Origin: Holophagaceae bacterium
GTDB lineage: Bacteria > Acidobacteriota > Holophagae > Holophagales > Holophagaceae
Reading direction: 5' to 3'
Assembly (NCBI GenBank): GCA_017859955.1
Contig: JAFNAB010000009.1
Coordinates: 1 to 47,378, forward strand
Length of the DNA: 47,378 nucleotides
Position 1 is the first letter of the stretch, and each line of letters opens with the position of its first letter. The notes beneath the pieces are model-generated. The model searched no databases. It was not told where the DNA came from and was given only the letters and a program-made list of their open reading frames with translations. Of this stretch, positions 11,946-31,503 are shown piece after piece. The translations under genes and the position numbers were made by a program.

Positions 11946-12114
11946 TATTAAGCCTCGATAGCGAATGCCAACGGGGCTTTCTGGTATCAGATCAGGCAAT
12001 CAAGGCTCCCCCTGAGCCCAGCCAAATCACTCAGTCCATGGGTCACTTGCTGCGGACTCCGAGTGTTCCGGAGCATCCTGCGGCGGTGCGGCTTGGATGG
12101 TGCCCAGCTTCGTT

Positions 12115-14598
12115 TTATCGCCGCTCCGGCGCCTCGGCCTTGAGGGGATCTTCGGGCCAGAGGTGGCGGGGGTAGCGGCGGGAGAGCTGGGGCCGAAGCT
12201 CCTGGTAGGCCCGCTGCCAGAAGCCCGCCAGGTCCTTGGTGACCTGGACCGCCCGGAAGTTGGGGGCCAGGAGGTGCAGGACCAGGGGCACGGAGCCACC
12301 GGCCACCCGGGGGCCTTCATTCATCCCCAGGAAGTCCTGGAGGCGGGATTCGATCCAGGGGGCCTCGCCGCCGTAGTTCACCTTCACGCGCCGTTTGGGG
12401 AGCGCAACTGTCTCTGGAGCCCAGGAATCCAGGAGCTTGGCCCCTTCAGTCCCCAGCAGTTCCTTGGCGGCCCAGGCCCAGTTCACCCCCTGAAGCTCCT
12501 TCAGGGTGCCGCAGCCCAGGCAGCCCTTGGCCAGCAGGCTGTGGCGCAACTCCGCCCCCTGGGACAGAGCCAGATCCGTGCGCACCCGGCCCAGGAAGGC
12601 CAGGCGATCGAGCAGGGCGTCCAGGCCCTCCAGGGGCAGATCCTGGGCTGCCCGGGCCAGGACTTCGGCGGTCCGGGGGTCATCGGCCTCGGCCCGCCGG
12701 CGGGACTCGTCCACACAGAGATCCTCGTACCAAAGACTGGAGCGCCGCTCCACCCGCCCCTGATCGGGGTTCCAGGCGAAGTCCAGGCGGTCCTGAAGGC
12801 GCTCCGGGAAGGCCTCCAGCAGCCACTCGGGCTCGATGCTGGACGCGGCGCGCACCAGCACCTCCCGCCCCGTGCCCCGGATCACTTCGTCAGCCTCCAG
12901 GGCCAGAATCCACTCGGCGCGACGAACCCGGCTCCCGGGGTCCAGCCTGGCCCCGGTGCCCCCCACCAGGGCGAAGGTGCCCGATCCCCCGGCCCGGGCC
13001 ACCCGGTCCGGGTAGGCCTGCAGCAGGGCCAACAGAAGACGTTCCTCCCCATCGGCGGGGCCTCCCTCGCTGTGATGGCCCCCCAGGGCCTTGAAGGCCA
13101 GGTGGGCCTGCCGCACGGCACCCGAATCCAGCCCCGCCGCTCGGCAGGCCCCGGGGGCGAAGCGGGCCGCCTCGGCCTCCCGGAAGGCATCGAGACGGGG
13201 CCAGAGATCAGAGGCCAGGGCATGCCCACCCTGACGGCGCTCCAGACTGCCCCGGGCGCTGAGGTCTCCGGTCTCAAGCAGGGCCGCCGCGAGGCGCGCC
13301 AGCTCCGGAATCCCCGCATCCTCGCCCGCCAGCACCAGCCGGGCCAGGCGGGGGTGCAGGGGCAGGCGGGCCATGCGTCGCCCCAGGTCCGTGAGGCGGC
13401 CGTCCTCCAGGGCCCCCAGGCGCAGCAACAGCTGTTCCGCAGCATCCAGGGCCGCCACGGGGGGCGCCTCGAACCAGGGCATGGCGAGGGGGTCAACCAC
13501 CCCGGCACCATGGAGGCCCAGCAGGGTATCGGCCCAGTCGCTCCGCAGCATCTCCGGGGGGTCAAAAGCTGGACGGACCCGGAAATCGGCCTCGGTGAAA
13601 AGGCGGAGGCAGAGCCCCGGCCCCTGGCGACCGGCCCGGCCCGCCCGCTGGATGCAACGGGCCTGGCTGATGCGTGCTGTGCGCAGGCTGGAAAGACCGG
13701 ACCAGACGGAATGCTGGGCCTCCCGGCCCAGCCCCGAATCCACCACGGTCCGCACTCCGTCCAGGGTCACGGAACTCTCGGCCACATTGGTGGAGAAGAT
13801 CACCTTGGGTTCCCGGGAGGGAGTCACCGCCGCCTGCTGAGCCTCGAAGGAAAGGCTGCCGTGGAGAGGCAGGAGCTTGAGGCCGCGCCGCCGCCCCAGG
13901 TCCTCGCAGGCCCCCAGGCAGGCCCGGATCTCCGCGGCCCCCGGCAGGAATACCAGGGTATGGCCCGGACCCTCCAGGCGCTCCAGGGTCTCGGCCACTC
14001 TCAGGGCCAAGGGGCGATCATCCTGGCGATCGGCGTAGCGCAGCTCCACGGGGTGGGCGCGTCCCCCGCTGCTGAGGACCTCCGCCCCCAGGTAGGCCGC
14101 CACGGGCTCGGCATCCAGGGTGGCGCTCATCACCACCAGGCGCAGGCCGGGCCTGCGGGCCTGGAGAGCCTTCAGGAGGGCCAGGGCGACATCCGTCTGG
14201 AGGTGCCGTTCGTGGAACTCATCCAGGATCACGATACCGATGCCCTTGAGTTCCGGATCCTCCTGGAAGCGCCGTAGCAGCAGTCCTTCAGTCACGAAGC
14301 GCACCCGGGTCGCCGCCGAGACCCGGTGTTCGAAGCGCACCGCGTATCCCACCCGCTGGCCCGGCTCCTCTCCCAGCTCCTCAGCCACCCGGGCCGCCGC
14401 CAATCGTGCCGCCAGCCGCCTGGGCTCCAGCACCCAGCACTCCTGGTCCTTCAGCAGCCCCGAATCCAGGAGGGCTCGGGGCACCCGGGTGGTCTTGCCG
14501 GCCCCGGGCTCGGCGGTGAGGACCAGATCCCGCCCGGCACGGACCACTTCGATGATCCTGGGCAGAAGGGGGTCAATGGGAAGGGAGGTCAAAGACAT
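12115..14598 (-). CDS. hrpB: ATP-dependent RNA helicase HrpB
   Basis: 827 residues, close to the 809 of the E. coli protein. HrpB is a DEAH-box RNA helicase of unclear physiological role. Visible in order: Walker A AEPGAGKTT near residue 30, DEFHER (DEAH-box variant) near 120, the SAT motif VVMSATLDAE, motif VI region QRAGRAGRQGPG near residue 325, then the helicase-associated domain and the HrpB C-terminal domain (NPDQGRVERRSSLWYEDL). The start at 14598 is chosen because the conserved TSLPIDPLLPRI begins there; an in-frame ATG at 14634 adds 12 proline-rich residues. It stands alone, convergent with the tRNA island and divergent from the kinase at 14765. Confidence 0.92.
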   Translation of the reverse strand: MSLTSLPIDPLLPRIIEVVRAGRDLVLTAEPGAGKTTRVPRALLDSGLLKDQECWVLEPRRLAARLAAARVAEELGEEPGQRVGYAVRFEHRVSAATRVRFVTEGLLLRRFQEDPELKGIGIVILDEFHERHLQTDVALALLKALQARRPGLRLVVMSATLDAEPVAAYLGAEVLSSGGRAHPVELRYADRQDDRPLALRVAETLERLEGPGHTLVFLPGAAEIRACLGACEDLGRRRGLKLLPLHGSLSFEAQQAAVTPSREPKVIFSTNVAESSVTLDGVRTVVDSGLGREAQHSVWSGLSSLRTARISQARCIQRAGRAGRQGPGLCLRLFTEADFRVRPAFDPPEMLRSDWADTLLGLHGAGVVDPLAMPWFEAPPVAALDAAEQLLLRLGALEDGRLTDLGRRMARLPLHPRLARLVLAGEDAGIPELARLAAALLETGDLSARGSLERRQGGHALASDLWPRLDAFREAEAARFAPGACRAAGLDSGAVRQAHLAFKALGGHHSEGGPADGEERLLLALLQAYPDRVARAGGSGTFALVGGTGARLDPGSRVRRAEWILALEADEVIRGTGREVLVRAASSIEPEWLLEAFPERLQDRLDFAWNPDQGRVERRSSLWYEDLCVDESRRRAEADDPRTAEVLARAAQDLPLEGLDALLDRLAFLGRVRTDLALSQGAELRHSLLAKGCLGCGTLKELQGVNWAWAAKELLGTEGAKLLDSWAPETVALPKRRVKVNYGGEAPWIESRLQDFLGMNEGPRVAGGSVPLVLHLLAPNFRAVQVTKDLAGFWQRAYQELRPQLSRRYPRHLWPEDPLKAEAPERR

Positions 14599-14764
14599 CG
14601 GACCAGGATCGCATGGGAGCGGGGGCGAGGGCACAGACGCGATGGGATCAAGGGGGAACGCGGAGCAAGCAGACGGGCCCTCCTTTCATGCCAGAGAGCG
14701 CATACCTGTGGGTAAAGTTCTGGGATGAAGGTATAGTGCAGGCACTCTCTCAAGCAGGCCTTGC

Positions 14765-15913
14765 ATGTCCCAGCGCTCAGCCCCCTGCTCCAATCAACTG
14801 TCGCCCCCCCGCTCGACCCCCGAGGAGTTGGGCGAGCTGGCCTTGCATTGCCTCCAGAGCCCCATTCTGGAAGCCGTACTCTCCTCGCTGCAGGGACGGG
14901 CCCTGATCCTGGATCGGAATCGGCAGACCATCGCCGCCAACCAGGAGTTGCTGGAGGCCATGGGTCTCATCAGCTGCACCCCCCTCCTCGGCAGGCGACC
15001 GGGGGAGGTCTTCGGGTGCGTACGGGTGCCTTTCGGCCACGATGGCTGCGGCACCAGCCCGGCCTGTGCCCAGTGCGGCGCCCTCCTGGCGATCCTGGCC
15101 AGTCAAGCCCAGGAGGCTCCCGCCAAGGGGGAATGCCTCATGATGGTCCTGAATCATGGGAAGCAAGAGGCCCACGAGTTCGCGGTCCGGGCCGCGCCCC
15201 TGGAGCTTGAGGGAAACCCCCTGGTTGTGTTCGTGATCCAGGACATCAGCCCTCAGAAGCGCTTGGAGACCCTGGAGAGGGTCTTCTTCCACGACATGGC
15301 GAACACCCTGCAGGGACTTCGCCTGCGATCCGAACTGCTCTGCAAGGCGGATCCGGAGCATCGCCCGGCCATCCAGCAGATAACCGGGCTCTGCGAGATG
15401 CTGGATGCGGATATCACGCACCACCGCCTGCTCCTGGAGGCCGAGCGGGGAGCCTTGAAGCCCCAGATGAAGGATCTGGACGCCCAGACCGTGCTGGATT
15501 CCCTGGCGCAGTTCTTCCAGCTGCATCCCGCAGCCAGGGACAAGCGCCTCACCATCGTTCAGGCTGACCCTTCGGTGCGCTTCCGATCGGATCACTCGCT
15601 CCTCTTCCGGGTTCTGACCAACGCGGTGTTGAACGCCCTGGAGGCCTCCCCACCCGAAGGGGAGGTGCGGACCTGGTTCGGCAGGCAGAACACCCGCCCT
15701 GCCTTTTCCATCCACAATGCCGGAGCCATCCCGGAAGGCATCCAGCGCCAGATCTTCCAGCGCTCCTTCAGCACCAAGGCCTCCCAGGGGCGGGGCCTGG
15801 GGACTTACAGCATGAAGCTCCTGGGTGAGGATTACCTGGGCGGGACCTGGCAGCTCTCCTCCAACCCCGCCGAAGGCACGACGTTCACCCTGGCCCTACC
15901 CCCTCATGATTGA
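14765..15913 (+). CDS. Soluble PAS histidine kinase with Cys-rich sensor
   Basis: 382 residues without membrane segments. The N-terminal PAS-like domain (about 30-155) contains a cysteine cluster: the segment GCGTSPACAQCGA near residues 95-110, with a further Cys about ten residues before, which could bind a metal, haem or Fe-S cofactor. The H-box is VFFHDMANTLQ, with phospho-acceptor H176. The HATPase part has an N-box (TNAVLNALEAS) and GRGLGTYSMK as the G2 box; the G1 motif DxGxG is replaced by HNAGAIP, still compatible with ATP binding in this HPK subgroup. No partner regulator is adjacent. The last 29 bases overlap the convergent amidotransferase gene. Confidence 0.75.
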   Translation: MSQRSAPCSNQLSPPRSTPEELGELALHCLQSPILEAVLSSLQGRALILDRNRQTIAANQELLEAMGLISCTPLLGRRPGEVFGCVRVPFGHDGCGTSPACAQCGALLAILASQAQEAPAKGECLMMVLNHGKQEAHEFAVRAAPLELEGNPLVVFVIQDISPQKRLETLERVFFHDMANTLQGLRLRSELLCKADPEHRPAIQQITGLCEMLDADITHHRLLLEAERGALKPQMKDLDAQTVLDSLAQFFQLHPAARDKRLTIVQADPSVRFRSDHSLLFRVLTNAVLNALEASPPEGEVRTWFGRQNTRPAFSIHNAGAIPEGIQRQIFQRSFSTKASQGRGLGTYSMKLLGEDYLGGTWQLSSNPAEGTTFTLALPPHD

Positions 15914-16640
15914 TGGCGGAGGCCCCGACCCGCTCGACGAAGCTCCGGAACAGGTTCAGGGCGGCCCTGCCCGCTTCACCGGAAAGGCCCACCAGATTCT
16001 CGGGATGCCACTGCACTCCCACGGCGAACCGCTCGGGGTCCAGGGACTCCACCGCTTCCACCAGGGCACCTTCGACGTCCCGGGTTCCCGGATGCCAGGC
16101 CACGGCCTTCAGCCCAGGCGCGATGCGGCGCACGGCTTGATGGTGGCGGCTGTTCACCTCGGGGTCGAGGCTCCCCAGAAGCCCGGCCAGGGCCGAGCCC
16201 GGTTCCACGGCCACCGTGTGGGCCAACTCGGGCTGCTCCGGCGTGCCCCGCTGGTGTAAGGTCGCCTCAACCCCGAAGCGGCTCGGGATGTCCTGGTGCA
16301 GACTCCCACCCAGGGCCACATTGAGCACCTGCGCACCACGGCAGACGCCCAGAATAGGAATGTGGCGCTGCCAGGCCTCCCGCACCAGGGGGAGTTCCAG
16401 GGCATCCCGCCCTTCGTCCAGCTCCACCGTCCCGTGAACCGGCTCCGCGGGATCCCAGTGGCGGGGGTGGATATCTGCCCCACCCAGGAGCAGGAGCCCT
16501 GAATAGCCCTCCAGGGAGGGCACGGGATCGCCGGGGGACACCAAATCTACGGCGCCCACCCAGCCCCCGGCGCGGAGGGCCGCGACATAATGCTTGTGGG
16601 CACTTTCCTTGTTTCTGCAGGTCAGAAGGATGCTTGACAC
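15885..16640 (-). CDS. Class-I glutamine amidotransferase (peptidase C26, PuuD-like)
   Basis: 251 residues beginning with GTG at 16640. The fold and catalytic triad of C26 gamma-glutamyl hydrolases are visible: GLLLLGGADIHPRHW near residues 48-62, the nucleophile in LGVCRGAQVLN near 97-107, and WHPE near 215 with the catalytic His/Glu. PuuD relatives cleave gamma-glutamyl-GABA in putrescine breakdown; other members act in different gamma-glutamyl pathways. No putrescine genes are nearby, so the substrate is open. It diverges from ssb, whose ATG is 95 bases away. Confidence 0.8.
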   Translation of the reverse strand: MSSILLTCRNKESAHKHYVAALRAGGWVGAVDLVSPGDPVPSLEGYSGLLLLGGADIHPRHWDPAEPVHGTVELDEGRDALELPLVREAWQRHIPILGVCRGAQVLNVALGGSLHQDIPSRFGVEATLHQRGTPEQPELAHTVAVEPGSALAGLLGSLDPEVNSRHHQAVRRIAPGLKAVAWHPGTRDVEGALVEAVESLDPERFAVGVQWHPENLVGLSGEAGRAALNLFRSFVERVGASAINHEGVGPG

Positions 16641-16734
16641 GTTTCCCCCTCAGGGCATCATGTCAAACTACCATCAGCTCAGCGAGCCCAGGACGGAACG
16701 AGGAGCTATTCCCACCTTTGCCCGGAGGCAACAC

Positions 16735-17202
16735 ATGTTTAACTCATTGAACAAGGTCACCCTTATCGGGAAGACGAGCTTCAAGTTCCCCCCCGAGTTC
16801 AAGGTCACGCCCTCCGGGACGCCCATCCTGCGCTTCTCCATGGCCACCACCGAGGTCACCAAGGACAAGGAAGGCAACAAGAAGAAGAACACCGAGTACC
16901 ACCGCATCGTGATCTGGGGCAAGCTGGCCGAGCTGGGCGAGCGCTTCATCAAGATGGACACCCTCGTCTACATCGAGGGCAAGCTCCGCACCAACCAGTA
17001 CACGGACCAGAGCGGCAAGGAGGTCAAGAACACCGAGATCGTCGCCCACGACTTCGTGATCCTGGACTCCACCCCCTTCGGCGAGCGGGGCCAGGGCGGC
17101 GCCGCCCCCTCCGACTACCGGAGCAGCAGCCCTGCCCGGGAATACGAGCCCGGCCCCGCAGCCGGCCAGTCCGGTGGCTACGACGACGACATCCCCTTCT
17201 AA
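16735..17202 (+). CDS. ssb: Single-stranded DNA-binding protein
   Basis: 155 residues. The OB-fold occupies residues 1-110 (NKVTLIG at the start, RFSMAT, YHRIVIWGKLAE), followed by a Gly/Pro/Ser-rich linker and the acidic tip DDDIPF that recruits RecO, PriA, exonuclease I and other partners. The ATG at 16735 follows GGAGG with seven bases between; the frame runs upstream to 16594, but that part is not conserved. SSB coats ssDNA in replication and repair. It is the last core gene before the large accessory region, which begins within about 130 bases. Confidence 0.95.
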   Translation: MFNSLNKVTLIGKTSFKFPPEFKVTPSGTPILRFSMATTEVTKDKEGNKKKNTEYHRIVIWGKLAELGERFIKMDTLVYIEGKLRTNQYTDQSGKEVKNTEIVAHDFVILDSTPFGERGQGGAAPSDYRSSSPAREYEPGPAAGQSGGYDDDIPF

Positions 17203-17333
17203 AATATACTTGGCCAATGAGTGTAAATTTTTCAGGGAATCGCCTTCGTTTTAGGCAATTCACCTCTTGACAGCCAGAACCCCGAGCGTAACATCCCCGG
17301 CAGTAAGTCGTGTACTGCTGGGGAGTGTTAATT
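17203..17333. other. Junction between ssb and the accessory region
   Basis: AT-rich at first (17203-17260), then the leader of the recombinase operon. The 19 bases at 17221-17239 match 41723-41741 in 16 positions in the same orientation and may be one boundary of the large element. GGGGAG at 17320-17325 is the ribosome site that decides the TTG start at 17334. Confidence 0.4.
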
Positions 17334-18596
17334 TTGGACGACATCAAGATCAGGCTGATTGTGCTGGAGGGCGGAGAGCGGCTCCCCCTCCTGGTGGGGC
17401 AGAACGGGCTTCCCCTGTTCCACCCAGCGGTCTGGATGTTAACCATGCGCCGGGCTGTCAATCTTGCTAGCGCCACATTGAAGCAAGACCTGCACGCACT
17501 GAAAGTCCTATATAGCTGGAGCCTCCAAACAGGCAAGGACATCGAGGGCAGGATGCTTGCCGGAGAATTCCTTACTGCCACCGAGTGCGCAGCTCTAGTC
17601 GATGCGATAAAGCAGCCCATGAGTGCAATGGACAGCGCTCCTATGTCCTCAGCCAAGGCCAAGCCCATCCGTCTCAATAACATTGAGTCCAACCGAATGC
17701 GCCAAAAGGTGTGCGGCGCCCGTATCGGAACCCCAACAGCAGCACTTCGCCTACGCACCATCATCCAATATCTCAAATGGCTTGCAGACGAAGGAAGAAA
17801 CAGCTTGCCCATGAAGGAGGCCGAGGCTCGGACAAGGGCACGTGACGAGATGCTGGCCGGGCTGACGGCTAGGCTCCCAAGGATTGGAAACAAGAGCCTT
17901 TTAGGCAAGCGAGAAGCCCCTCCCCCGGAGGCCATTGAGACACTACTGCGAATCGTCGAGTTGGACTCTGTAGAAAATCCATGGATGGATTTGGGATTGC
18001 GGGTTCGGAACCGCCTTCTTATTTACCTGCTGTTCGGACTGGGAGTCCGTCGCGGAGAACTGCTGGGCATCAGGGTCGATCGCATCGATTTCCAAGGGAA
18101 CCGTTTGCTGATCGCCCGTTACCCAGATGACCCAGTGGACCCAAGGAAGTACCAACCCCTTACCAAGACCCGCGATCGGTGGCTCCCTTTGAAGGATCGC
18201 CTAGTCTCGATGGTCCAGGAGTACGTGACCCACGTGCGGTCGAAGTTACCGATGGCCAAAAAACACCCATATCTCTTCGTATCCCACCGTGACGGGGCAC
18301 CCCTGGCAATCATCTCCGTCAACAAGCTTTTCACTTCACTGCGAAGTAAGTTCAAAGAGCTGCCAGAGGACCTAACCCCACACCTCCTCCGGCACGCATG
18401 GAACGACGCGTTCAGCCGCTTGGCCGACTCTTTGGGGCTTGACTCTGCCCGAGAAAGGCAACTGAGAGCGGAGGTGATGGGTTGGGAACCAACATCTAAC
18501 TCTCCTGAGTTTTATTCGCGTCGACACACCCGAAATGCAGCCGAAAAGCTATCTCTCCAGCACCAGGAGAGCCTGTTCATGGAAAACCCAAAATGA
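17334..18596 (+). CDS. Tyrosine recombinase, first of three
   Basis: 420 residues from a TTG at 17334 preceded by GGGGAG at eight bases; an upstream in-frame GTG at 17310 has no ribosome site. The C-terminal half is a phage-integrase catalytic domain: GVRRGEL at 237-243 with the first catalytic arginine, KTRDRWLPL with the beta-strand lysine, HLLRHAW at 350-356 giving the HxxR pair, and the nucleophile Y394 in FYSRRH. The N-terminal half is helical and should be the core-binding domain. Tyrosine recombinases cut and rejoin DNA through a 3'-phosphotyrosine link. Its stop overlaps the next start by four bases (ATGA). Confidence 0.85.
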   Translation: MDDIKIRLIVLEGGERLPLLVGQNGLPLFHPAVWMLTMRRAVNLASATLKQDLHALKVLYSWSLQTGKDIEGRMLAGEFLTATECAALVDAIKQPMSAMDSAPMSSAKAKPIRLNNIESNRMRQKVCGARIGTPTAALRLRTIIQYLKWLADEGRNSLPMKEAEARTRARDEMLAGLTARLPRIGNKSLLGKREAPPPEAIETLLRIVELDSVENPWMDLGLRVRNRLLIYLLFGLGVRRGELLGIRVDRIDFQGNRLLIARYPDDPVDPRKYQPLTKTRDRWLPLKDRLVSMVQEYVTHVRSKLPMAKKHPYLFVSHRDGAPLAIISVNKLFTSLRSKFKELPEDLTPHLLRHAWNDAFSRLADSLGLDSARERQLRAEVMGWEPTSNSPEFYSRRHTRNAAEKLSLQHQESLFMENPK

Positions 18597-20125
18597 CCAT
18601 CGCGACTACCATAAAAATGGATTACGAACTCCCGGAAACAGCGAGTTCACGTGATGGTATTGAATGGAACCCTCGTGACCAAATTTGGCGATTTTCAGGT
18701 CTATCAAAAAATCATCTCTTCAATTTTGATCATTTATCATCAATTTCAACGGAGAACATCATAACGTCTTTAAAGTTTTTATTAACATACTACATCTGCA
18801 ACTACTCCATGAATCATTCCGACAATGGCTTCGGTCGCATTTGTGCATTAATTTCACATGCCCACAGGATCAATAACAAAAAAATTGATACAATTAGCTT
18901 AGAAATGGCAGTAGCATACCGCGTAACACTTGATCGAAGAAAAGAGTGGTACCTCGGGTCAATGAGAGGTTTTTTAAAAAAATGGATAGACTTGAGGCTC
19001 CCAGGACTTGACCCCAAAGTAGTTGTTTGGCTCGACGAAATTCACCTAAAAGGAAACATTAAGGGTGAGGCCGTTACGACATTAGACCCAGCCACAGGGG
19101 CATTTTCTACTATCGAATACCAGGGGATCATCACCGCACTCAATAACCAGTTTGCGAAGGGTGCGATTGAACTCGAGGATTACATCCTGGTATGGCTATT
19201 CATGGCACTGGGCACTCGGGCTATTAATCTAGCAGCCCTCAAAATCAAGGATTTCGGTAAGGTAAACACCTCCGACGGCATCACAAGCTATTTAATCCAA
19301 GTGCCACGCGCCAAGCAACGTGGCAAGCTTCCTCGTTCGGAGTTCAAGGCGCGTAAGCTGATCAGTGAATTAGGCATATTGCTCGACAACTATGCTCAAT
19401 CGGTCAGGATGAAATGGGGACATCTCATGGCAAATTCAGATGAATTGCCATTGTTTGTTAAATCCAATGACAGTGTTGCATTTGAAGGCCTTAAGCATCA
19501 CTACAACAGCAATGACATCGCAATTAGGCTTCGATCTATTTTTGACATTCTGGGAGTTAAAAGCGAACGCACTAACGGACCGCTCCACATCACGACCAAA
19601 CGATTCCGGTACACGATAGGGACGCGGGCAGCTGCCGAGGGCGCCAGTGAGCTTGTAATTGCCGAGCTATTGGACCATTCAGACACTCAAAATGTAGGTG
19701 TTTACCTGGAGACGGTGCCAGAAATTCTCGATCGGATCGACAAGGCAATGGCCATTCATCTCGCTCCCATGGCTCAGGCATTTGCTGGCCAACTTATCAA
19801 TGACGAGTCGCAAGCTAAGCGCGGCGGCGATCCCCGGTCCCGAATCGTCGGCCCCGAGGCACCGAAGAGGCCCGTCGGCAATTGTGGGAGCTTCGGCTTC
19901 TGCGGGGCTGCGGCCCCGATTGCTTGTTACACCTGTAGGAACTTCCAGCCATGGAGGGACGGCCCCCACGCGGAGGTCCTCAAGTCCCTAATCGCAGAGC
20001 GCGAGCGTGTGTTGGCGGAAACCGGTGACGCGAGAATCGCCTATGTGAATGACCGCACTATCCTGGCCTGCGCGGAGGTGGTACGGATGTGCAGCGGCTT
20101 AGCAACCAGCCCAATGGAGGAGTGA
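18593..20125 (+). CDS. Tyrosine recombinase, second of three, with Cys-rich tail
   Basis: 510 residues. The catalytic set is R209 (GTRAINL), KQRG near 243 with a candidate lysine, KRFR at 336-339 where lysine takes the place of the usual histidine in HxxR, and Y371 in GVYLE. After the catalytic domain comes a tail with four cysteines at 431, 437, 445 and 448 (NCGSFGFCG then ACYTC), likely a zinc-binding site. The first 450 bases are clearly more AT-rich than the rest. It ends at a TGA overlapping the ATG of the third recombinase by one base. Confidence 0.8.
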   Translation: MTIATTIKMDYELPETASSRDGIEWNPRDQIWRFSGLSKNHLFNFDHLSSISTENIITSLKFLLTYYICNYSMNHSDNGFGRICALISHAHRINNKKIDTISLEMAVAYRVTLDRRKEWYLGSMRGFLKKWIDLRLPGLDPKVVVWLDEIHLKGNIKGEAVTTLDPATGAFSTIEYQGIITALNNQFAKGAIELEDYILVWLFMALGTRAINLAALKIKDFGKVNTSDGITSYLIQVPRAKQRGKLPRSEFKARKLISELGILLDNYAQSVRMKWGHLMANSDELPLFVKSNDSVAFEGLKHHYNSNDIAIRLRSIFDILGVKSERTNGPLHITTKRFRYTIGTRAAAEGASELVIAELLDHSDTQNVGVYLETVPEILDRIDKAMAIHLAPMAQAFAGQLINDESQAKRGGDPRSRIVGPEAPKRPVGNCGSFGFCGAAAPIACYTCRNFQPWRDGPHAEVLKSLIAERERVLAETGDARIAYVNDRTILACAEVVRMCSGLATSPMEE

Positions 20126-22179
20126 TGGCAGAGGCTATCGTATTCATCCCCCAAGCGGAAGGCGAGGCCCAAGATAACCTCAGAGACTTCATCCAGTTCG
20201 CCCATGGCATTCTCGGTGGCTATCCGGAAATCAAGTCCTGGGAGGATGCCCCATGGGACCTTACCGGGGTGGTTTCCTGGAGAGGCAGGGGAAACGTAAG
20301 AGCCAGGGCGGTATTCAGTAGCCACGATGGAGCGGGGAGGGGTGACAGCGACTACATGGCACAGCCCTTCCTCGATTTCGCGAAGGCCTATTTCCTGTAT
20401 TCAAACGCGACATCCTCGCCCAAGACCTATGTTGTTCGGCTTGCGGCGCTGAGGGCGCTTGAGAAGGCATTGACGGGAACACATGGAACCCCAAATGTTT
20501 GCCTCGCAACCCCTGCCATCTTCAATATCGCAAGTGGCCACATCAAGGAGCGGTTCTCAGCCGGAGCTGGTTATCGGGTGGGCTTAGCCCTGGATGGCAT
20601 AGGCAAGTTCCTGGTCAACAAGCGACTAGTGGCGACTCCGTTTCAATGGAAGTCCCCCATTAAACGCGATCAAGACAGGAACCGCGTTGGGCCCGAGGCC
20701 GACCGTAAAAGGGCAGATAAACTACCGACCGAAGCAGCCTTGGATGCTCTCCCCCGTTGTTTTCGCAATGCAGAAACCGAGATCGACATCTTGGTCACCT
20801 CCGCCGCAGCCCTGTTTTGCTGCGCCCCTGAGCGAAGCGCAGAAGTAATGACCTTGCCAGCGGATTGCGAAGTCGAGGTGGAGCGTGATGGAAAGAAAAT
20901 GTACGGGTTGCGCTGGTGGGGTGCAAAGGGAGCCCCACCCAGGATCAAGTGGATAATTCCCGGGATGGTCCAGGTGGCCAAGGAAGCCCTAGCAAGGCTG
21001 CGCGCAGTCACGGACAAAGCCAGGGAAATAGCAGCATGGTATGAGGCCAATCCAGACCACCTCTATCTCCCAGCAGAAGCAGAACACCTCAGAGGAAAGG
21101 AGAACCTAAACGCCGGGGAGTTAAAACTGATCCTTGGTGTTGCCATGCAGAGTCCGGAAATATTACTCCAGCAAAACACGGGTCCATTGTTGGCCTCACC
21201 GAAGAGGTTGCCAAAGGCAGCAGCATCATTTGCGGCAGTAGAAAAGATGGTTCTCTCGAAACTTCCGCCAAGATTTCCGGTGTTCGATGAAGCAACAGGA
21301 ATCACGTATTCCAAGGCGCTCATGGTCGTTCAAAAGAACCAATTTCATCCGATCAAAGGTGTCTATCCCAGCATGATAGAGGCGTTCAGTACAAATAGAA
21401 TGAACTTCCACCTTGGGTCATGCAGGGAACGTTCGATCTCGCTGTTTGCCAGATTTGGCTTCAAGGAACCTGACGGTGGCCCCATCGAGTTGACAACCCA
21501 CCAGTTCCGGCACTGGCTGAACACCATGGCCCAACGTGGAGGACTGTCCCAAGTCGATATCGCCAAATGGTGCGACCGTATCGATATCCGCCAAAACCAG
21601 GCCTACAACCACATGACCAGCCATGAATTGGTGGAGATGACCAGGGGTATAACCAAGGAGGACCCCAAACTGTTCGGCCCCCTTGGCGAGCTGGCAATGC
21701 GGTCACCGCTGTCCCGGGACGAGTTCATGCAGTTGGAGTTCCCGACCGCCCACACCACAGAGATCGGATTTTGCGTCCATGACTTCACGATGCTGCCCTG
21801 CCAGAAGCACCGGGACTGCATTAACTGCAGCGAGCACGTGTGCGTTAAGGGCGATGCCCGGAAGACCCAGCGGATCATGGAACAGCTCGAAATCGCCGAG
21901 GAACAGCTGAAGCGTGCCATGGAGGCCACGACCGATGGCTATTTCGGGGCTGGCAGATGGGCCGAGCACCACCAGGCCACCATAGAACGCCTCCGAGCGT
22001 TGGCGCAGGTGCTGAACGATCCATCCGTTCCGGTCGGCGCCCTCATCCGGATGGTAAACCCAAACGAATATTCGCCCATCCGGATGGCTATCCAGGAAAG
22101 ACATGAACTGGGTGACGATTCAATCGCCTCTCTGGCGCTCGACTTTGGTCTCCTCAAGTCTCTCGCCGGGAAGGAATGA
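20125..22179 (+). CDS. Large tyrosine recombinase, third of three, with Cys-rich domain
   Basis: 684 residues from the ATG at 20125, which has GGAGGAG in front and overlaps the previous stop; the frame is open to 20089 but that part lies inside the second recombinase. The catalytic domain is around residues 240-500 with HQFRHW at 459-464 (HxxR) and Y494 in NQAYNHMT. Residues 550-573 hold five cysteines and two histidines (C550, C559, C565, C568, C573), probably zinc-binding. The long N-terminal region and its size resemble TnpB of Tn554-like elements in outline, but I have no alignment. It overlaps the next gene by four bases. Confidence 0.75.
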   Translation: MAEAIVFIPQAEGEAQDNLRDFIQFAHGILGGYPEIKSWEDAPWDLTGVVSWRGRGNVRARAVFSSHDGAGRGDSDYMAQPFLDFAKAYFLYSNATSSPKTYVVRLAALRALEKALTGTHGTPNVCLATPAIFNIASGHIKERFSAGAGYRVGLALDGIGKFLVNKRLVATPFQWKSPIKRDQDRNRVGPEADRKRADKLPTEAALDALPRCFRNAETEIDILVTSAAALFCCAPERSAEVMTLPADCEVEVERDGKKMYGLRWWGAKGAPPRIKWIIPGMVQVAKEALARLRAVTDKAREIAAWYEANPDHLYLPAEAEHLRGKENLNAGELKLILGVAMQSPEILLQQNTGPLLASPKRLPKAAASFAAVEKMVLSKLPPRFPVFDEATGITYSKALMVVQKNQFHPIKGVYPSMIEAFSTNRMNFHLGSCRERSISLFARFGFKEPDGGPIELTTHQFRHWLNTMAQRGGLSQVDIAKWCDRIDIRQNQAYNHMTSHELVEMTRGITKEDPKLFGPLGELAMRSPLSRDEFMQLEFPTAHTTEIGFCVHDFTMLPCQKHRDCINCSEHVCVKGDARKTQRIMEQLEIAEEQLKRAMEATTDGYFGAGRWAEHHQATIERLRALAQVLNDPSVPVGALIRMVNPNEYSPIRMAIQERHELGDDSIASLALDFGLLKSLAGKE

Positions 22180-22637
22180 TGGCCCGCCACCTAAGCGACA
22201 AGAACATCCGAGACATCGTCGAACTCCTGGACGGCTGGCGGGAACCTCTGACCTGGCAAACCCTCCAGGACGCGGTGAAGGGGCTGACGGGGCAAGCCTA
22301 CACCCGCCAAGCACTTAATTCACACGAGCGTATCCGCACTGCGTTTGCCATACGCAAGAACCTCCTAAAGGACCGACCTAGCCCCCCGACTGGCTCGACG
22401 GAAGAGATGCGCGCCTTGCAGGAAAGGATCGCCCGGCTGGAGGGGGAGAGGGCGCGCCTTTCGGTGGAGAACGAACGGCTTTTGAGCCAATTCATGGTTT
22501 GGGCCTATAACGCATCGATCCATGGGCTGAGTAAAGAGGTGTTGAACCGCCCCCTCCCTTCAACCGACCGTGATCGAACCAACATCTCAGCCCTAAGCTT
22601 CCAAGACAGAAAGGGCGGTAAGAAACATGGGAAATAA
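22176..22637 (+). CDS. Small coiled-coil protein of the recombinase operon
   Basis: 153 residues. Residues 1-60 look like a winged or simple HTH segment (LTWQTLQDAVKGLTG followed by YTRQALNSHERIRTAF), and residues about 70-108 form a heptad-rich coiled coil (MRALQERIARLEGERARL). A start at 22179 is equally possible. Position and size suggest an accessory DNA-binding factor for the recombinases, comparable in role to TnpC of Tn554; no homology is shown. It overlaps the next gene by 11 bases. Confidence 0.6.
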   Translation: MMARHLSDKNIRDIVELLDGWREPLTWQTLQDAVKGLTGQAYTRQALNSHERIRTAFAIRKNLLKDRPSPPTGSTEEMRALQERIARLEGERARLSVENERLLSQFMVWAYNASIHGLSKEVLNRPLPSTDRDRTNISALSFQDRKGGKKHGK

Positions 22638-23046
22638 CTCTCAGGACACAGGGAAAAGCGGCAAACAAATTAGCCAAGAATATATTGAAACCCTGAAGAA
22701 CTATCTAGACACCCTAAGAGCCAATGGAACGGGCCTTCCGAGTCGAAATGGCAAAATCTCTACATCAGCCATCGCCCTCGCAGCAGGCATAGACCGGCAG
22801 TCGCTTTACAAAAACCCACACTGCCGAGCCCTCCTGGAAGCAGCTGCCGGAGAAATGGAACTTTGCGGAATCGGAACTCACAAGCCCACTTCATCCATGG
22901 ATGACGGAAAGGATCAGCGGATCCAAACCCTTGAAGCCCAGATTGCAACCTTGACGGCGGAGGTTTACGGCCTCCGAGCCAAACTCGCCCAATATGGCCA
23001 CATTGAGGCACACATGGTCACCACTGGGCGCAGAGTAATTCCGTGA
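22627..23046 (+). CDS. Small HTH/coiled-coil protein of the recombinase operon
   Basis: 139 residues. A helix-turn-helix-like core at about 38-62 (ISTSAIALAAGIDRQSLYKN) is followed by a linker and a coiled coil at about 95-122 (RIQTLEAQIATLTAEVYGL). This arrangement matches the general shape of DUF6262/TnpC-like accessory proteins that accompany paired integrases, although I cannot verify membership. Its TGA overlaps the GTG start of the helicase gene by four bases (GTGA). Confidence 0.6.
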   Translation: MGNNSQDTGKSGKQISQEYIETLKNYLDTLRANGTGLPSRNGKISTSAIALAAGIDRQSLYKNPHCRALLEAAAGEMELCGIGTHKPTSSMDDGKDQRIQTLEAQIATLTAEVYGLRAKLAQYGHIEAHMVTTGRRVIP

Positions 23047-25154
23047 CCACCCTGGCTTTGACAGTACGAAAGGTGTGGCCTGGAAGCCAAGGTGGAGCCG
23101 TATTCACCGGTCTGGACGATTCCGGCGCCCTCCATAGAGTCGTAGCCGCCCCAAAAGCACTTCACCGAATCCCGCTAGCGGGTGAACACTGGGAAGTCGA
23201 AGGTCCAATCAGAGCCCATTACAAATTTGGCCCCCAGATCCATGCAGAATGGGCTGTGCCGGTTCGCCCCCAAGGGGAGGTGCTGCGAAGATTTCTAGCT
23301 CAAAACCCCAATTTTCAGCAAATAGGTGAAACACGGGCTAGAAGATTGTGGGAGGTCTTTGGCGAGGACCTTCCTTCCTTACTCGACACGGGGAACAATC
23401 CATTGCTCGCCGATATCCTGGGCGACAAACTCGCAACCTCGCTGATAGAGGCATGGAGACTCTCTCGGGGCGAGACAAGGGCCGTCCGGTGGCTCGATGA
23501 GCACAAGTTCCCTGTATCTCTGGCCACAAAGGCTTTGCGGCTCTGGGGCGTGGATGCCGCAGAGAAAATTGCAGAAAACCCCTACCGCCTTCTGGCCATC
23601 GCGGATTGGCCCCTGGTCGATGCAGCGGCCCTGGACGCTGGGGCAAGCCCTTACAGCCCTGAGCGCCTCGTAGCTGCCGTCGAGGCAACCTGCTATCGCG
23701 TTCTTCACGACAAGCACACGGTCGTCTCGGAAGGCGACCTACTCGCGGGAGTGCAAACCCTTCTGCGATGCCCCATCCAGACGGCCCAAGAAGCAATTTC
23801 AACGGCAGAAGCGGAGAGTGCAGTGGTCAAACTCTCACCTGGGCACTGGCAACCCTTTGGCCCATGGGTGATGGAGTCTTTTCTCCGTGACCAGCTTCGG
23901 GAACGAGCCAGAGGGGAAGGTACCCAAACCGCCGATCTATACTGGGCTCGCCCCGGCGATGACCAGATCGGATTGCTTACGACTAACTTCGAGTCCCGGG
24001 AGGGAATTCACCTGACCGAGGAGCAGAGACATGCGGTCTGGCTGGCAATGACTCAGAGGTGCTCCCTCATTATGGGTGGAGCGGGCACAGGAAAAACGTC
24101 CATCATCAGGGCCGTCCGCCACGTCCAAGAAGCGAGCGGAGGCTCAATCCTAGGGGTTGCCCTCGCCGGGAGAGCCGCCCAACGCCTTCGGGAGATTGGG
24201 TGCCAAGCGAGAACCCTCGCTGGGCTCTTGGGGGCACTGGAGCGCCAGGAGATTTCGCTTAGCGGAGCCGACTTGGTCGTCCTTGACGAAGCATCCATGG
24301 TAGACCTCCCTCTCGCCTATACCCTATTCAGGCATTTACCACCGGAGACCAGACTCCTGATGGTGGGTGACCCTTACCAACTGCCGCCGATAGGATTCGG
24401 CCTCGTGTTCGGAGCTTTGGTCAACGATCCATCGATTCCCAAAGTCGAACTGACGAGAATCCACCGCCAAGCCCAATCCACGGGGATTCCATCTGTCGCA
24501 CGCCAGATTCGCGATGGAAAGCTTCCGTCATTACCTCCATTCAGTGGACCAGGTCCAGGAGTGTCCTTCATCCACTGCAGGGTCGAGGAGGCTCAGGCTA
24601 CGATCATTGAGACCCTTGGCGCCCTCGGCAGCGAGACTCAACTACTTTCCCCGATCAAGCGAGGCCTTGCCGGAACTGAGGCAATCAACACCTCAATCCA
24701 TGCCCTTCGATCCACGGGGCAAACTTGGTCTGGGCTCGGATTGGGGGACCCGGTCATCCATCTAGAAAATGATTACGAATCTCTTGTTTTCAACGGAACC
24801 CTGGGCACCGTGAGCGAGGTTCTGGCGGATGGCGTCCAGATTCAATGGGATGGCCATGACCACCCAATGACATTCCGCGAGAGCCGTCGCGAAGCACTGG
24901 CTCTCGCCTATGCAATATCTATCCACAAGGCTCAAGGCAGTCAGTTTAGACGTGTTGTGATACCCATTTTCACCAACCGCCTCCTGGATCGCACATTGGT
25001 GTACACAGCCCTTACTCGGGCTGAGGAACAAGTCGTATTCCTTGGAGATTGGTGCGCATTGGAAGCAGCCGTGAAGGCTCAACCAGCTCCAGAGCAACGG
25101 CGCACAGGGATGATGCTAGCGGCAGATTCAGCTTGCTTCGAGAGTCCGATCTAA
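23043..25154 (+). CDS. RecD/TraA-like superfamily 1 DNA helicase
   Basis: 703 residues. The N-terminal third has the helix-hairpin-helix region seen before the motor in RecD2-type enzymes (IGETRARRLWEVFGE near residue 92). The motor shows Walker A GGAGTGKT at 345-352, the Walker B variant LDEAS at 414-418, VGDPYQLPPIG near 443-453 and SIHKAQGSQF near 626-635, all typical of RecD-like 5'-3' helicases. The end carries YTALTRAEEQVVFLGD. No relaxase or nuclease domain is visible. It begins with GTG inside the stop of the previous gene, so its supply is tied to the recombinases. It may open or process the excised or replicating form of the element (inference). Confidence 0.85.
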   Translation: MTTLALTVRKVWPGSQGGAVFTGLDDSGALHRVVAAPKALHRIPLAGEHWEVEGPIRAHYKFGPQIHAEWAVPVRPQGEVLRRFLAQNPNFQQIGETRARRLWEVFGEDLPSLLDTGNNPLLADILGDKLATSLIEAWRLSRGETRAVRWLDEHKFPVSLATKALRLWGVDAAEKIAENPYRLLAIADWPLVDAAALDAGASPYSPERLVAAVEATCYRVLHDKHTVVSEGDLLAGVQTLLRCPIQTAQEAISTAEAESAVVKLSPGHWQPFGPWVMESFLRDQLRERARGEGTQTADLYWARPGDDQIGLLTTNFESREGIHLTEEQRHAVWLAMTQRCSLIMGGAGTGKTSIIRAVRHVQEASGGSILGVALAGRAAQRLREIGCQARTLAGLLGALERQEISLSGADLVVLDEASMVDLPLAYTLFRHLPPETRLLMVGDPYQLPPIGFGLVFGALVNDPSIPKVELTRIHRQAQSTGIPSVARQIRDGKLPSLPPFSGPGPGVSFIHCRVEEAQATIIETLGALGSETQLLSPIKRGLAGTEAINTSIHALRSTGQTWSGLGLGDPVIHLENDYESLVFNGTLGTVSEVLADGVQIQWDGHDHPMTFRESRREALALAYAISIHKAQGSQFRRVVIPIFTNRLLDRTLVYTALTRAEEQVVFLGDWCALEAAVKAQPAPEQRRTGMMLAADSACFESPI

Positions 25155-25176: not shown

Positions 25177-25611
25177 CTATGGCTTGATCTCAATAGCGCA
25201 GATGGTTCTTGCCTGGACATAGATAAGGACACATGCCTCTAGAACAGCAGAAACACTTATGTCTGACTTTGCAGCCACATCATTAAGAAGATCTAGTTCA
25301 TCTCCTTTCATGTATACCTGAACAGGAGACTTACCCCACTTCTTACGAGCCATGGACACCTCTCTCGCAGCGAGCTCAAGCTCTTCAGGGGTCGCCAGAT
25401 TACGCACTTCCATGAAGGCATTCACAATCCCTTGTGAATATTGTCCACGAGGGAAGTACCTCTCAAACAATTCAAATGTATAGCGATCAATTCGACACTG
25501 AGGGCCGCTGACTCTCATACTGCGAGTGCTGATTGATGCAGCACTGCTAGATATATGAGAAATAACAATCCTTATACATTCGTGCAATTTACGCTGCTGA
25601 GGGTCGACCAT
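25177..25611 (-). CDS. Possible ribbon-helix-helix protein
   Basis: 144 residues from the ATG at 25611, or 172 from 25695. The C-terminal 50 residues (VQVYMKGDELDLLNDVAAKS, then VSAVLEACVLIYVQ) have the strand-helix-helix spacing of an Arc/MetJ or toxin-antitoxin RHH DNA-binding domain. Before it is a helical AREVSMARKKWGKS segment. It converges on the helicase gene, with 22 bases between, and diverges from the XRE regulator. It is probably a regulator or element-maintenance protein; the RHH assignment is tentative. Confidence 0.5.
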   Translation of the reverse strand: MVDPQQRKLHECIRIVISHISSSAASISTRSMRVSGPQCRIDRYTFELFERYFPRGQYSQGIVNAFMEVRNLATPEELELAAREVSMARKKWGKSPVQVYMKGDELDLLNDVAAKSDISVSAVLEACVLIYVQARTICAIEIKP

Positions 25612-25660
25612 GTAGCCTCGTTGAACAGAATAGTCGGGTCTGGCGAAGGTGCTCCCCGAA

Positions 25661-25695
25661 ATGCTACTTATAGTCTGTAGACCTATAGTCGTCAA
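25661..25695. promoter_or_regulatory. Possible operator between the divergent regulators
   Basis: TATAGTC occurs twice about 15 bases apart and the sequence between forms an imperfect palindrome (TATAGTCTGTAGACCTATA). It lies just upstream of the XRE gene and over the front of the divergent one, a usual place for autoregulation. Confidence 0.35.
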
Positions 25696-25713
25696 TCCCG
25701 GACGATCCCAACC

Positions 25714-25947
25714 ATGGTCACTAGGGATTCAAGGCGAGGCGGGGCTAGACAAATTTTTGCGAGCAACCTCAGATCTATTCGCAAGCAGAAAGGACTCTCA
25801 CAAGAGGACCTAGCCGATTTGGCCCACCTCCACCGCACCTACGTTGGCTCTGTAGAACGTGGAGAACGGAATATTTCCATCGACAACATGGAAACCCTTG
25901 CCCTGGCCCTCGACACCTCACTGGCCGAGATGCTTTCCGACACCTAG
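25714..25947 (+). CDS. XRE (Cro/CI-type) transcriptional regulator
   Basis: 77 residues, essentially one HTH_3 domain: LRSIRKQKGLSQEDLADLAH then HRTYVGSVERGERNISIDN. Such single-domain repressors commonly control element excision genes or restriction/toxin modules. The Arg-rich start (TRDSRRGGARQ) is ordinary. It stands immediately behind the mobility operon, diverging from the RHH-like gene. No restriction-modification genes follow; the next 640 bases are non-coding. Confidence 0.8.
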   Translation: MVTRDSRRGGARQIFASNLRSIRKQKGLSQEDLADLAHLHRTYVGSVERGERNISIDNMETLALALDTSLAEMLSDT

Positions 25948-26231
25948 CCCCTGGCGGAAGCCTCCAGAATTTCTGATTGCGCTTCTACACCCGGTAGGCT
26001 AGCGTGGCTGCATCCGGACAGAGGATAGGGCAACGCAGGGATGCGACCCGAGCGCTGATCCGGGGCCGAAGCTGACGCTTCCGGGGCCTTCAATGGAGGC
26101 CCCGTCATCTTCAGCTTTGGCCGTAAAGCGTTAAATCCCGGGGGTCGTGGGGGCAGAGCCCCCACTCTGAATTCAGGACTATACATCGCATCTACTCACC
26201 TAAAGGGTAAGGGTCTGCGGGAAATGTATGA
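25948..26231. other. GC-rich structured non-coding block
   Basis: No gene is seen. Three hairpins can be drawn: GGGGCCGAAGC paired with GCTTCCGGGGCC around 26062-26088, a 7-bp stem at 26083-26089 with 26097-26103 (competing with the first), and an 8-bp stem at 26147-26154 with 26158-26165 around loop AGA. CCGGGGCC occurs twice. The block is more GC-rich than the DNA on either side. Confidence 0.45.
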
Positions 26232-26378
26232 AGGCCCTGGTTCCACATCCTGATCGAGTCACTGGAACAGCATGGGCAATTCAAGCTGGACGAAGGGGTC
26301 CGAATGGAGATGCGCATAATTTGCCCAGCCACCATGGACCGGACTCTTGCCAGCCGTGAGGAAGGAAATTTGGGGTAA
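26232..26378 (+). pseudogene. Remnant of an rve-type integrase/transposase
   Basis: A 48-codon open stretch reads WFHILIESLEQHGQFKL and continues to CPATMDRTLAS before a stop at 26376. This resembles the segment of certain DDE (rve) transposases in which a phrase like ALERHGHL...VSAATIDRLLA occurs. It is bounded by stops and has no catalytic residues, so it is a fossil fragment. Confidence 0.5.
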
Positions 26379-26473
26379 ATTACGATGACAAGCCACCACC
26401 CCAAGGTGTCTACTTTCTGATGTAACAGACATGTGATAGATTCCCGCAAATCCTCATCAAGCATGCGTATTCA

Positions 26474-26497
26474 GGGTTTCTCAGGTCCGACTACTTA
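26474..26497. repeat. Solo IS5-type terminal sequence
   Basis: Twenty of 24 bases match 31870-31893, which follows the IS5-family transposase remnant. It is probably the isolated end of a related insertion sequence. Confidence 0.45.
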
Positions 26498-26590
26498 GCC
26501 TACCGAAAAGACTGATTGGCGCAAAATTTTCACACAAAAACGATTTTGTCCTGCGAATATAGAGCTTAGGTCAAACACAAGAGGGCGGAG

Positions 26591-27106
26591 ATGGCAGCGT
26601 TCGCAATCCGGGTACCAATAGAATTCGACTTGCAACCATTCGCAGGGAGATGGTTCTCCTGGAGTGAGATAGAGGCATGCTTCTGGCCCGGACCAAGAGG
26701 GCGGTCCGAGAAGGTCAATTCAGAATTAGCTCCTGCCCGCGACCGTGGTGGGGTTTATCTTATGGCATGGTCTGAAGCCGCACCGGAGGAGGTCTCCCCA
26801 ATAGCGAAAGCCGTGAAGTATATCGGCCAAACCAACTGTTTTAAGGCACGTATGGGACAGTTTGCCTCCTCCGCAGGGCTGTGGGGGCCAAGGGCAGATG
26901 GACATTCCGCTGGATGGAGATGGCCGGAGGGTAAAAGCGAAAATCTTTTTGTGGCATTTTTCCCGATTAATGAGGGGATGGACACTCACTTAGCCAATGG
27001 TCTTCTACATTGGCTAGAAGCGGTAGGGATGGATATGTACAAGCAGCATCACGCCCGCCTCCCTTCTCTGAACGCCCGTGACAATATAGACTCCCTATCC
27101 ATGTAA
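26591..27106 (+). CDS. GIY-YIG nuclease-like protein
   Basis: 171 residues. RGGVYLMAW near residues 52-60 and KYIGQT near 76-81 correspond to the GIY and YIG strands, FKARMGQF near 84-91 could provide the catalytic arginine, and the helix NGLLHWLEAVG near 136-146 has a glutamate at the place of the metal ligand. GIY-YIG domains cut DNA in repair, restriction and homing enzymes. There is no second domain apart from 45 residues at the N-terminus (FAGRWFSWSEIEACF). The G+C content is below that of the core. It is an isolated cargo gene; restriction or mobile-element roles are both possible. Confidence 0.55.
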   Translation: MAAFAIRVPIEFDLQPFAGRWFSWSEIEACFWPGPRGRSEKVNSELAPARDRGGVYLMAWSEAAPEEVSPIAKAVKYIGQTNCFKARMGQFASSAGLWGPRADGHSAGWRWPEGKSENLFVAFFPINEGMDTHLANGLLHWLEAVGMDMYKQHHARLPSLNARDNIDSLSM

Positions 27107-27297
27107 AGCCCTGACATTGTCGCCAATATCCAAAACAGTAAATATTCACCATTCAATATACACTCTGACAATGACCCGATTGCCACACTGACAAATGCAG
27201 TAAATTCATGTAGGTGAATTCCTCAAAAATGGAAACAGAAAGGAGATCATTGATTCAACCTATGCTAAAACGAACATACCGCCAAGGGGACAACATA

Positions 27298-28011
27298 ATG
27301 CCATTAGATAAATTCACCAAGCACAAAATGTTTTTTTTCAAAACAGGCACAATTCCATTGATGAGAGCCTTAACTTTATTATTGTTGGCAACCTCATTTA
27401 GCTGTGACTCGACAAACCCAAAAGATAGTAATGCACTGTCAAAACCCAATGAGAGCGTCAATCTAACCACCAAGCTGCCTTCGCCAAAGGACGTGCAAGT
27501 CAAACAATTTGCGACTGCTTACCAATTCTGCCAGGCGTGGAATGACGCAAACAATAGGATACTCGCCAGATTTAATAGGATCATGCAAACACCCGATATT
27601 TTTTATTCTCAGATGAATGAAAGGTACCATATCGGTTCAATTAGGGAAATACCTCGTGCAAACAATGAGAGTTATGATTTCCATACAATCGACAATTCCT
27701 CCAGCATGGAGTTGGGTGCTTTAGAAACGGATATAAGTAGTAAAAAAGTAAACACGTTCATCATGCTGTGGTATCCGAAAGATATTCGTACTGCAGAATA
27801 TTTATTGATTACAACATTTGAAGTTTTTGGATGTGATCCAGAACGATCCCAGCAAGAAAGTCGATCAATTCTGCAAGATTACAGATCACTACAAGCTGGA
27901 AACCCAGGAGGCATAACTCGGCAATATAATGGCTACAGAATAACCATTAACCCCCATATCCACGGAGGAAGCGGGGTAACTGTTGAATTTAGTTCTGAAG
28001 GCCACTTGTAA
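27298..28011 (+). CDS. Exported or membrane-anchored protein, possible lipoprotein
   Basis: 237 residues from the ATG at 27298 (AAGGGG eight bases upstream); in-frame starts at 27229, 27262 and 27361 cannot be excluded. A hydrophobic stretch MRALTLLLLATSFSC sits at residues 22-36 behind a positively charged head; the final Cys could be lipidated, although SFSC is a poor lipobox. The mature part has no recognised domain; a HIHGGSGVTVEF segment ends it. The gene is markedly AT-rich compared with the core, a sign of recent transfer. Confidence 0.5.
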   Translation: MPLDKFTKHKMFFFKTGTIPLMRALTLLLLATSFSCDSTNPKDSNALSKPNESVNLTTKLPSPKDVQVKQFATAYQFCQAWNDANNRILARFNRIMQTPDIFYSQMNERYHIGSIREIPRANNESYDFHTIDNSSSMELGALETDISSKKVNTFIMLWYPKDIRTAEYLLITTFEVFGCDPERSQQESRSILQDYRSLQAGNPGGITRQYNGYRITINPHIHGGSGVTVEFSSEGHL

Positions 28012-28195
28012 AAGTTCTCTATAGACCAATTTAACTCCTGACGTTTCCCTGAAATCAAAGCACAAAAGATCGGAATAACAATCCACAGCATCAGGGTCGG
28101 ATTTATCAAAAATCAGCCAAGAAGTGGTCGGATAGAGGCCGTGCCCGATGGGGTTCAACTACCAGGGGGAGGTTCAGAGGTTCTGTCGCACAGTG

Positions 28196-28220
28196 GGTTC
28201 AAGAGTCTTGACGGTTGACA
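28196..28220. repeat. Imperfect 25-bp direct repeat, copy 1
   Basis: Matches 28386-28410 in 21 of 25 bases. Both encode a GSR-LTVD-like tail, so two related transposase ends are present in tandem. Confidence 0.5.
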
Positions 28221-28238
28221 GATGGCCACTCCACACCA

Positions 28239-28427: not shown

Positions 28428-28463
28428 AGGAAAACTAATACCTACTAATATTGTGTTGCGATA

Positions 28464-28820: not shown

Positions 28821-28853
28821 TACAACTACCCCTATACCAACACCATCTATCCA

Positions 28854-30064: not shown

Positions 30065-31503
<1,439 letters not shown>

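Follow-up and report, generated by a model that had tools for sequence, protein, structure and literature searches.

The question raised by this locus is what kind of mobile element its six overlapping genes belong to, and what a helicase does among three tyrosine recombinases. The genes lie in the window, by which we mean the whole stretch of 47,378 nucleotides that was analysed (contig JAFNAB010000009.1 of a Holophagaceae bacterium). The original prediction saw in them a candidate for an undescribed mobility system. A mobility operon they do form, but the system as a whole is a published one: the element is a GInt island that carries this six-gene operon and has inserted at the 3' end of ssb. 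GInts were described by Bardaji et al. in 2017 as islands that encode three recombinases and one small protein, often sit at the 3' end of ssb and are bordered by short imperfect direct repeats (PMC5385486). They have four genes, and the word "helicase" is found nowhere in the main text of that paper; with four genes as the published definition, the operon is not one already catalogued with the helicase as a standard member. The new part is the extension by a small protein, P5, and a RecD2-like helicase, for which no earlier description was found in the literature surveyed, the primary paper on gamma-mobile-trio (GMT) islands (Mahata et al. 2024, as cited in PMC12715929) lying outside it. GInts, GMTs and strand-biased circularizing elements (SEs) mobilise cargoes of large size, defence and resistance genes among them, using several recombinases and often leaving no empty donor site. 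A helicase that accompanies two of these systems hints at where a step may be missing from the known mechanism.

The six-gene operon

All six open reading frames at 17334–25154 are present on a single strand (forward), with the sizes and overlaps of the first reading: the recombinases measure 420, 510 and 684 residues and successive genes, from ginA to the helicase gene, overlap by 4, 1, 4, 11 and 4 bases. The first gene, ginA, starts with TTG at 17334, or possibly with GTG at 17310, and ends at 18596; its product is a tyrosine recombinase (Pfam PF00589, E = 1.2e-14). The second recombinase gene, ginB (18593–20125), matches NF041502 (E = 1.4e-162; 542 bits for a cut-off of 350). The third, ginC (20125–22179, ATG start, in a frame open from 20089), encodes a large and divergent tyrosine recombinase, recognised by invariant catalytic residues and profile matches. 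As predicted, two genes for small proteins and one for a RecD-like helicase of the SF1B type complete the operon: a ginD-like gene for a coiled-coil protein (22176–22637), the gene for P5 (22627–23046) and the RecD2-like helicase gene (23043–25154). A larger unit, the island at 17194–41855, has this operon as its left part.

Within the island and 5' of ginA, a promoter-like site is present by consensus match (TTGACA-16-TAACAT, 17267–17294, forward strand). Between this site and ginA, a hairpin or palindrome of 12 pairs (TCCCCGGCAGTA-loop-TACTGCTGGGGA, 17294–17324) is a possible operator. In 13 relatives, a search for perfect inverted repeats, which also missed the imperfect one of the window, found no similar palindrome 5' of either ginA or gmtY.

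Each recombinase has its own catalytic tyrosine, as had been claimed: the residues named Y394, Y371 and Y494 are the invariant nucleophiles in alignments of 17 to 19 homologues, and correspond to GinA Y402 in the numbering from GTG (P0001), GinB Y371 (P0002) and GinC Y506 in open-frame numbering (P0003). In the same alignments, R247, H358, R361, W392 and Y402 of GinA are invariant or nearly so; in GinB, R209, R339 and Y371 are invariant and the usual catalytic histidine is not conserved; in GinC, R249, H471, R474 and Y506 are invariant, the first arginine thus being retained. Single-sequence searches with GinC gave almost no matches. The AlphaFold model of GinC (pLDDT 37) is too poor for use, and profile searches were taken instead: these lead to archaeal Xer recombinases (XerA/XerC-like) in the PDB (E = 6e-5), and an hhalign profile comparison reveals that GinC is homologous to GinB (E = 1.4e-9). 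The carboxy-terminal part of GinB contains an invariant cluster of cysteines and a histidine (C431, C437, C445, C448 and H459), and in the carboxy-terminal part of GinC, C562, C577 and C580 are invariant among 18 to 19 homologues. The two clusters align with each other, in the window (18593–22179) and in relatives, and are likely zinc-binding. The genes ginA, ginB and ginC are thus the three consecutive tyrosine-recombinase-like genes characteristic of a GInt. The ginD-like gene is compatible with ginD in place and size, and its product shows weak similarity, in a diverged alignment, to small proteins of other gin operons; its assignment as ginD is positional.

P5, the partner of the helicase, combines a helix-turn-helix (HTH) and a coiled coil and is of the DUF6262/VPA1267 kind (30.5 bits to Pfam DUF6262; 36.8 bits to VPA1267_fam, below the NCBIfam cut-off of 90). 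It is a remote homologue of the VPA1267 proteins of GMTs (hhalign profile comparison, E = 3.5e-9). Its model has a pLDDT of 75, and the structural search gave no significant match apart from weak hits to HTH domains, themselves not significant. The helicase carries the HHH domain of RecD2 in addition to its helicase core, and its motifs are intact: GGAGTGKT (Walker A), DEAS (II), HKAQGSQ (V) and YTALTRA (VI). It resembles RecD2 of PDB entry 3e1s (E = 1e-38) and scores 374 bits against TIGR01448, below the RecD2 equivalog cut-off of 500. Between closer pairs of these helicases, dN/dS is about 0.13–0.19 (NG86) or 0.09–0.16 (YN00), so the helicase is maintained by purifying selection. Two other assignments were rejected. 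A phage origin of the P5-helicase module finds no match for P5 in INPHARED and, in IMG/VR, only distant helicase cores, about 25–32% identical; for a defence system, the PADLOC matches are generic RecD-like models for the helicase, with none for P5.

Island borders, target site and cargo

The insertion target is the host gene for the single-strand binding protein, ssb (16738–17202, forward strand; Pfam SSB, E = 8e-25), the product of which ends in DDDIPF. In the complete genome of a bacterium of the same genus (G001, locus L080), an 88% identical ssb is followed by an empty site: about 66 bp separate it from a GDSL lipase region. Window positions 12119–17200 and 41929–47373 align to this locus, and everything between is absent there. 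The source assembly is a draft in 224 contigs; collinearity of both island flanks with G001 speaks against a chimeric contig.

The island of about 24.66 kb (17194–41855) starts with attL (CCCTTCTAAAA, 17194–17204, forward strand), which overlaps the Pro-Phe codons and the stop codon of ssb, and ends at attR (CCCTTCTGAAA, 41849–41859, forward strand). The two sites match in 10 of 11 positions, as imperfect direct repeats in the 10–17 nt range of GInts. Downstream of attR lies a terminator-like hairpin (around 41863–41882), and the ssb of G001 likewise has one at its 3' side. The empty site of G001 reads CCCTTCTGACA, and the stop codon of ssb is TGA there and TAA in the window; it is regenerated on insertion and the protein remains unchanged, so that the insertion is site-specific at the end of ssb, like that of GInts. 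The position of the att core within the Pro-Phe codons of DDDIPF is a possible reason for the use of ssb as a target by unrelated GInts.

Both ends have motifs in common. On the left (17205–17232, forward strand) these are TATACTTGG, TTGGCCAA, CAATGAG and GTGTAAA; the right end (41723–41848, forward strand) contains GTGTAAA, TTGGCCAA, CAATGAG and the arm CCCGGTATACATAA. Counting the core, five 7-mers are common to the two ends, against 1.2 expected and a 95th percentile of four. When the ends are joined, the 14-bp arms CCCGGTATACATAA and TAAAATATACTTGG (left) give an inverted match of 9/14 around a 6-bp core, CCCTTC; the chance of this is about 0.002 for a geometry picked after the GInt and SE papers had been read. 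As in GInts, cargo is followed by a short AT-richer 3' end, the AT content being judged by reading.

The cargo (25177–41722) is made up of HTH regulators, IS21 remnants, a Ser/Thr kinase with TPRs and proteins without a family. The IS21-type remnants (29482–31503) are an IstB and the carboxy-terminal part of a transposase. The Ser/Thr protein kinase with TPR repeats (35316–38336) has a kinase part resembling defence kinases of the PD-T4-6 type, and a protein without a Pfam match (26591–27106) contains, by eye, a GIY-YIG-like stretch, AVKYIGQTNCFKARM. Elsewhere in the window, a second lower-GC stretch (8001–12000, about 55–58%), located directly after a tRNA-Thr gene at 8038, is possibly another island.

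Recurrence of the P5-helicase pair

A search with GinC of the genome and its relatives gave ten gin operons. P5 follows ginD in eight. Six of these show the helicase at least in part, and two are cut off within P5 by the end of the contig. Neither gene is present in L020 and L025. The six-gene order of the window is also found in L019, L021 and L023, and in copies cut by contig ends (L022, L024, L026 and L027). None of these seven adjoins ssb within the stretch read, and the upstream neighbours of gin operons vary from locus to locus. In complete operons, P5 and the helicase are 52–61% identical to those of the window, and GinA, GinB and GinC 24–41% (GinB and GinC 24–32%).

A scan of genome contigs with P5 returned three Acidobacteriota loci, all found before, and plasmid records of PLSDB were used for breadth. 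The pair follows diverged ginABCD genes in Holophagaceae, in another family of Acidobacteriota, on rhizobial plasmids (six-gene order in L048, L050, L051 and L058, and one further, degraded copy) and in Paraburkholderia (six-gene order in P. caribensis, L056). Four-gene gin operons are present on PLSDB plasmids of Cupriavidus, Pseudomonas, Caulobacter and P. megapolitana; the four-gene loci are L020, L025 and L082–L086. The helicase is therefore a member of the operon, as claimed, in many relatives and missing from others, and the six-gene order does recur in other genomes. The P5 and helicase genes overlap by four bases in the Acidobacteriota copies and in the GMTs of Klebsiella and pKAZ1; in rhizobia, about 110–240 bases lie between them as annotated, and not every copy of the pair is therefore tightly coupled in translation. 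On a plasmid of Rhodovastum atsumiense (L055, 7435–13003), a helicase of the recombinase-linked clade and a protein like P5 lie in an unusual order next to a RepB-like primase and site-specific integrases.

The pair in GMT islands

The comparison with GMT islands that had been suggested proved apt: a homologous VPA1267-helicase pair follows gmtYZX in many of them. The genome G015 contains a second P5-helicase pair (L038), 66% identical to that of the window and located after GmtY, GmtZ and GmtX and before the antiphage gene hyoA; this trio scores above the cut-offs (498, 972 and 220 bits, for cut-offs of 340, 600 and 40, respectively). In the gammaproteobacterial GMTs of Klebsiella, Providencia and pKAZ1, the last two genes encode a protein of the VPA1267 family and a RecD-like helicase. 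In V. parahaemolyticus, VPA1266, the neighbour of VPA1267 for which an amplicon of 1.9 kb is on record, is a candidate for this helicase. Others are without the full pair: L087 and L179 stop after gmtX, and L088 after VPA1267. Of the two GMTs in the sample of the phylum, one has the pair and the other lacks it. Membership of the window element itself in the GMTs was rejected (18 bits for GmtY, against the cut-off of 340; no match for GmtZ or GmtX).

A tree was made of 22 helicases, namely recombinase-linked ones and chromosomal and other plasmid RecD2s; 13 are recombinase-linked, counting the putatively linked one of Rhodovastum (L055). The recombinase-linked helicases form one clade (support 100/100), apart from chromosomal and other plasmid RecD2s. 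The helicase of the Holophagaceae GMT (L038) is sister to the GInt helicase of the window (P0006; 100/99). Monophyly of the GMT helicases is rejected (AU test, p = 4e-13), and that of the GInt helicases likewise in the topology test. The pair, or at least the helicase, has thus moved between GInt and GMT; since both are also found without it, P5 and the helicase make up a portable module that is optional for either. N-terminally truncated helicases of the GMT type are present on Salmonella IncC plasmids (L053, 7914–9941), next to mer genes and without the trio. Matches to the GMT-type helicase occur in 26 plasmid records of Salmonella, and those among the matches listed are of this truncated form.

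A possible mechanism and its alternatives

In our main reading, which we give a probability of roughly 60%, the element is a GInt island with recombinases acting at a 6-bp core and an optional, portable P5-helicase module that unwinds an intermediate for copy-out. GinA, GinB and GinC, with GinD, would recombine attL and attR at CCCTTC into a circle or circle precursor; a 6-nt stagger has been reported for GInts and SEs (PMC5385486, PMC10214605). P5, with its HTH and coiled coil, would act as an adaptor that holds the helicase at the complex of recombinases and DNA. Duplex unwinding by the helicase would start from a nicked or single-strand-bridged intermediate, and the element strand would be displaced or replicated, leaving the donor copy in place; the circular form would then be inserted at the 3' end of ssb by the same recombinases and GinD. 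We infer that P5 contacts the recombinases, that circularisation is replicative, and with which polarity and on what substrate the helicase acts; unwinding or replicating a one-strand recombination intermediate is the most likely role of the helicase. The copy-out step is proposed by analogy with published work: GInts form circles, and often, in several GInts, no empty site is detectable (PMC5385486), while for SEs one-strand exchange followed by replication has been proposed (PMC10214605).

Such islands probably use the pair as an interchangeable component of their mobility. In Pseudomonas, ginABCD alone suffices and four-gene GInts work without a helicase (PMC5385486), so the pair would enhance the reaction or alter its outcome, for instance copy-out versus cut-out, rather than be a core catalyst; that GMT islands with three or four genes exist (L087, L088 and L179) also counts against a need for the helicase. 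The gap between the two genes in rhizobia and the structural search with P5, with its lack of a significant match, likewise weigh against the main reading. In a bolder form, which we advance tentatively, the odds being somewhat against it, P5 and the helicase would be a dedicated unwinding module, interchangeable between multi-recombinase systems, that makes one-strand tyrosine recombination a replicative copy-out. Helicase-coupled tyrosine recombinase transposition would then be a pathway not described before.

It is rather unlikely that the pair serves in defence or anti-defence, as an accessory module hitch-hiking behind recombinase operons without a part in recombination. GInt and GMT islands do carry defence cargo (HyoA beside the helicase in L038, Qat in L086 and, by eye, Gabija-like genes in L179), and RecD-like models of PADLOC match the helicase generically. 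However, the pair is located directly behind the last gene of the recombinase operon, on the same strand and usually overlapping, across widely diverged lineages, while the remaining cargo varies between loci and P5 itself is without a PADLOC match. Just as improbable, in our judgement, is that the helicase repairs or restarts the donor DNA after excision, by fork or gap repair like RecD2, and so protects the host instead of driving the reaction. Its homology to a DNA-repair helicase fits, and GInts without a detectable empty site could mean toxic or unrepaired donors (PMC5385486), but this does not readily account for the helicase being preceded by a small protein, with HTH and coiled coil, from a single family, or for a pair that two recombinase systems have exchanged. 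Relaxosome-like service in conjugative or plasmid-type mobilisation, as by the helicase domains of RecD/TraA, is very improbable: the core resembles the helicase domains of the relaxases TraA and TraI, but no relaxase was found among the cargo proteins scanned and the full-length similarity, HHH domain included, is to RecD2. That this is a plain GInt with the helicase as a chance neighbour, as its presence in only some gin operons might suggest, is refuted by recurrence in conserved order in Acidobacteriota and Alpha-, Beta- and Gammaproteobacteria.

Comparison with known systems

Tn554 and RIT elements are, by description, similar in having several tyrosine recombinases per operon; they are not known to include a helicase. 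The helicase of the window shares the SF1B core and HHH domain with RecD2, but is below the equivalog cut-off and belongs to a separate, recombinase-linked clade. SEs combine tyrosine recombinases and a small protein in one operon and have a 6-bp spacer between imperfect inverted arms, and copy-out has been proposed for them; they differ, by description, in their intA-tfp-intB-srap order, with no helicase described, and were reported to be without blast similarity to GInt genes (PMC10214605). The likeness to GMTs lies in the multi-recombinase operon and in the homologous VPA1267-helicase pair downstream in many copies, although the recombinases of the window are not GmtY, GmtZ and GmtX. Closest are the GInts, with three consecutive tyrosine recombinases, a small end gene (GinD has been likened to TnpC of Tn554; PMC5385486), variable cargo, imperfect repeats and the 3' end of ssb as target. 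The window differs from them in adding P5 and the RecD2-like helicase to the operon, in its acidobacterial host and in the first catalytic arginine of GinC, reported missing in PMC5385486 and retained here. One pair exchanged between GInt and GMT ties together island families that have been treated separately.
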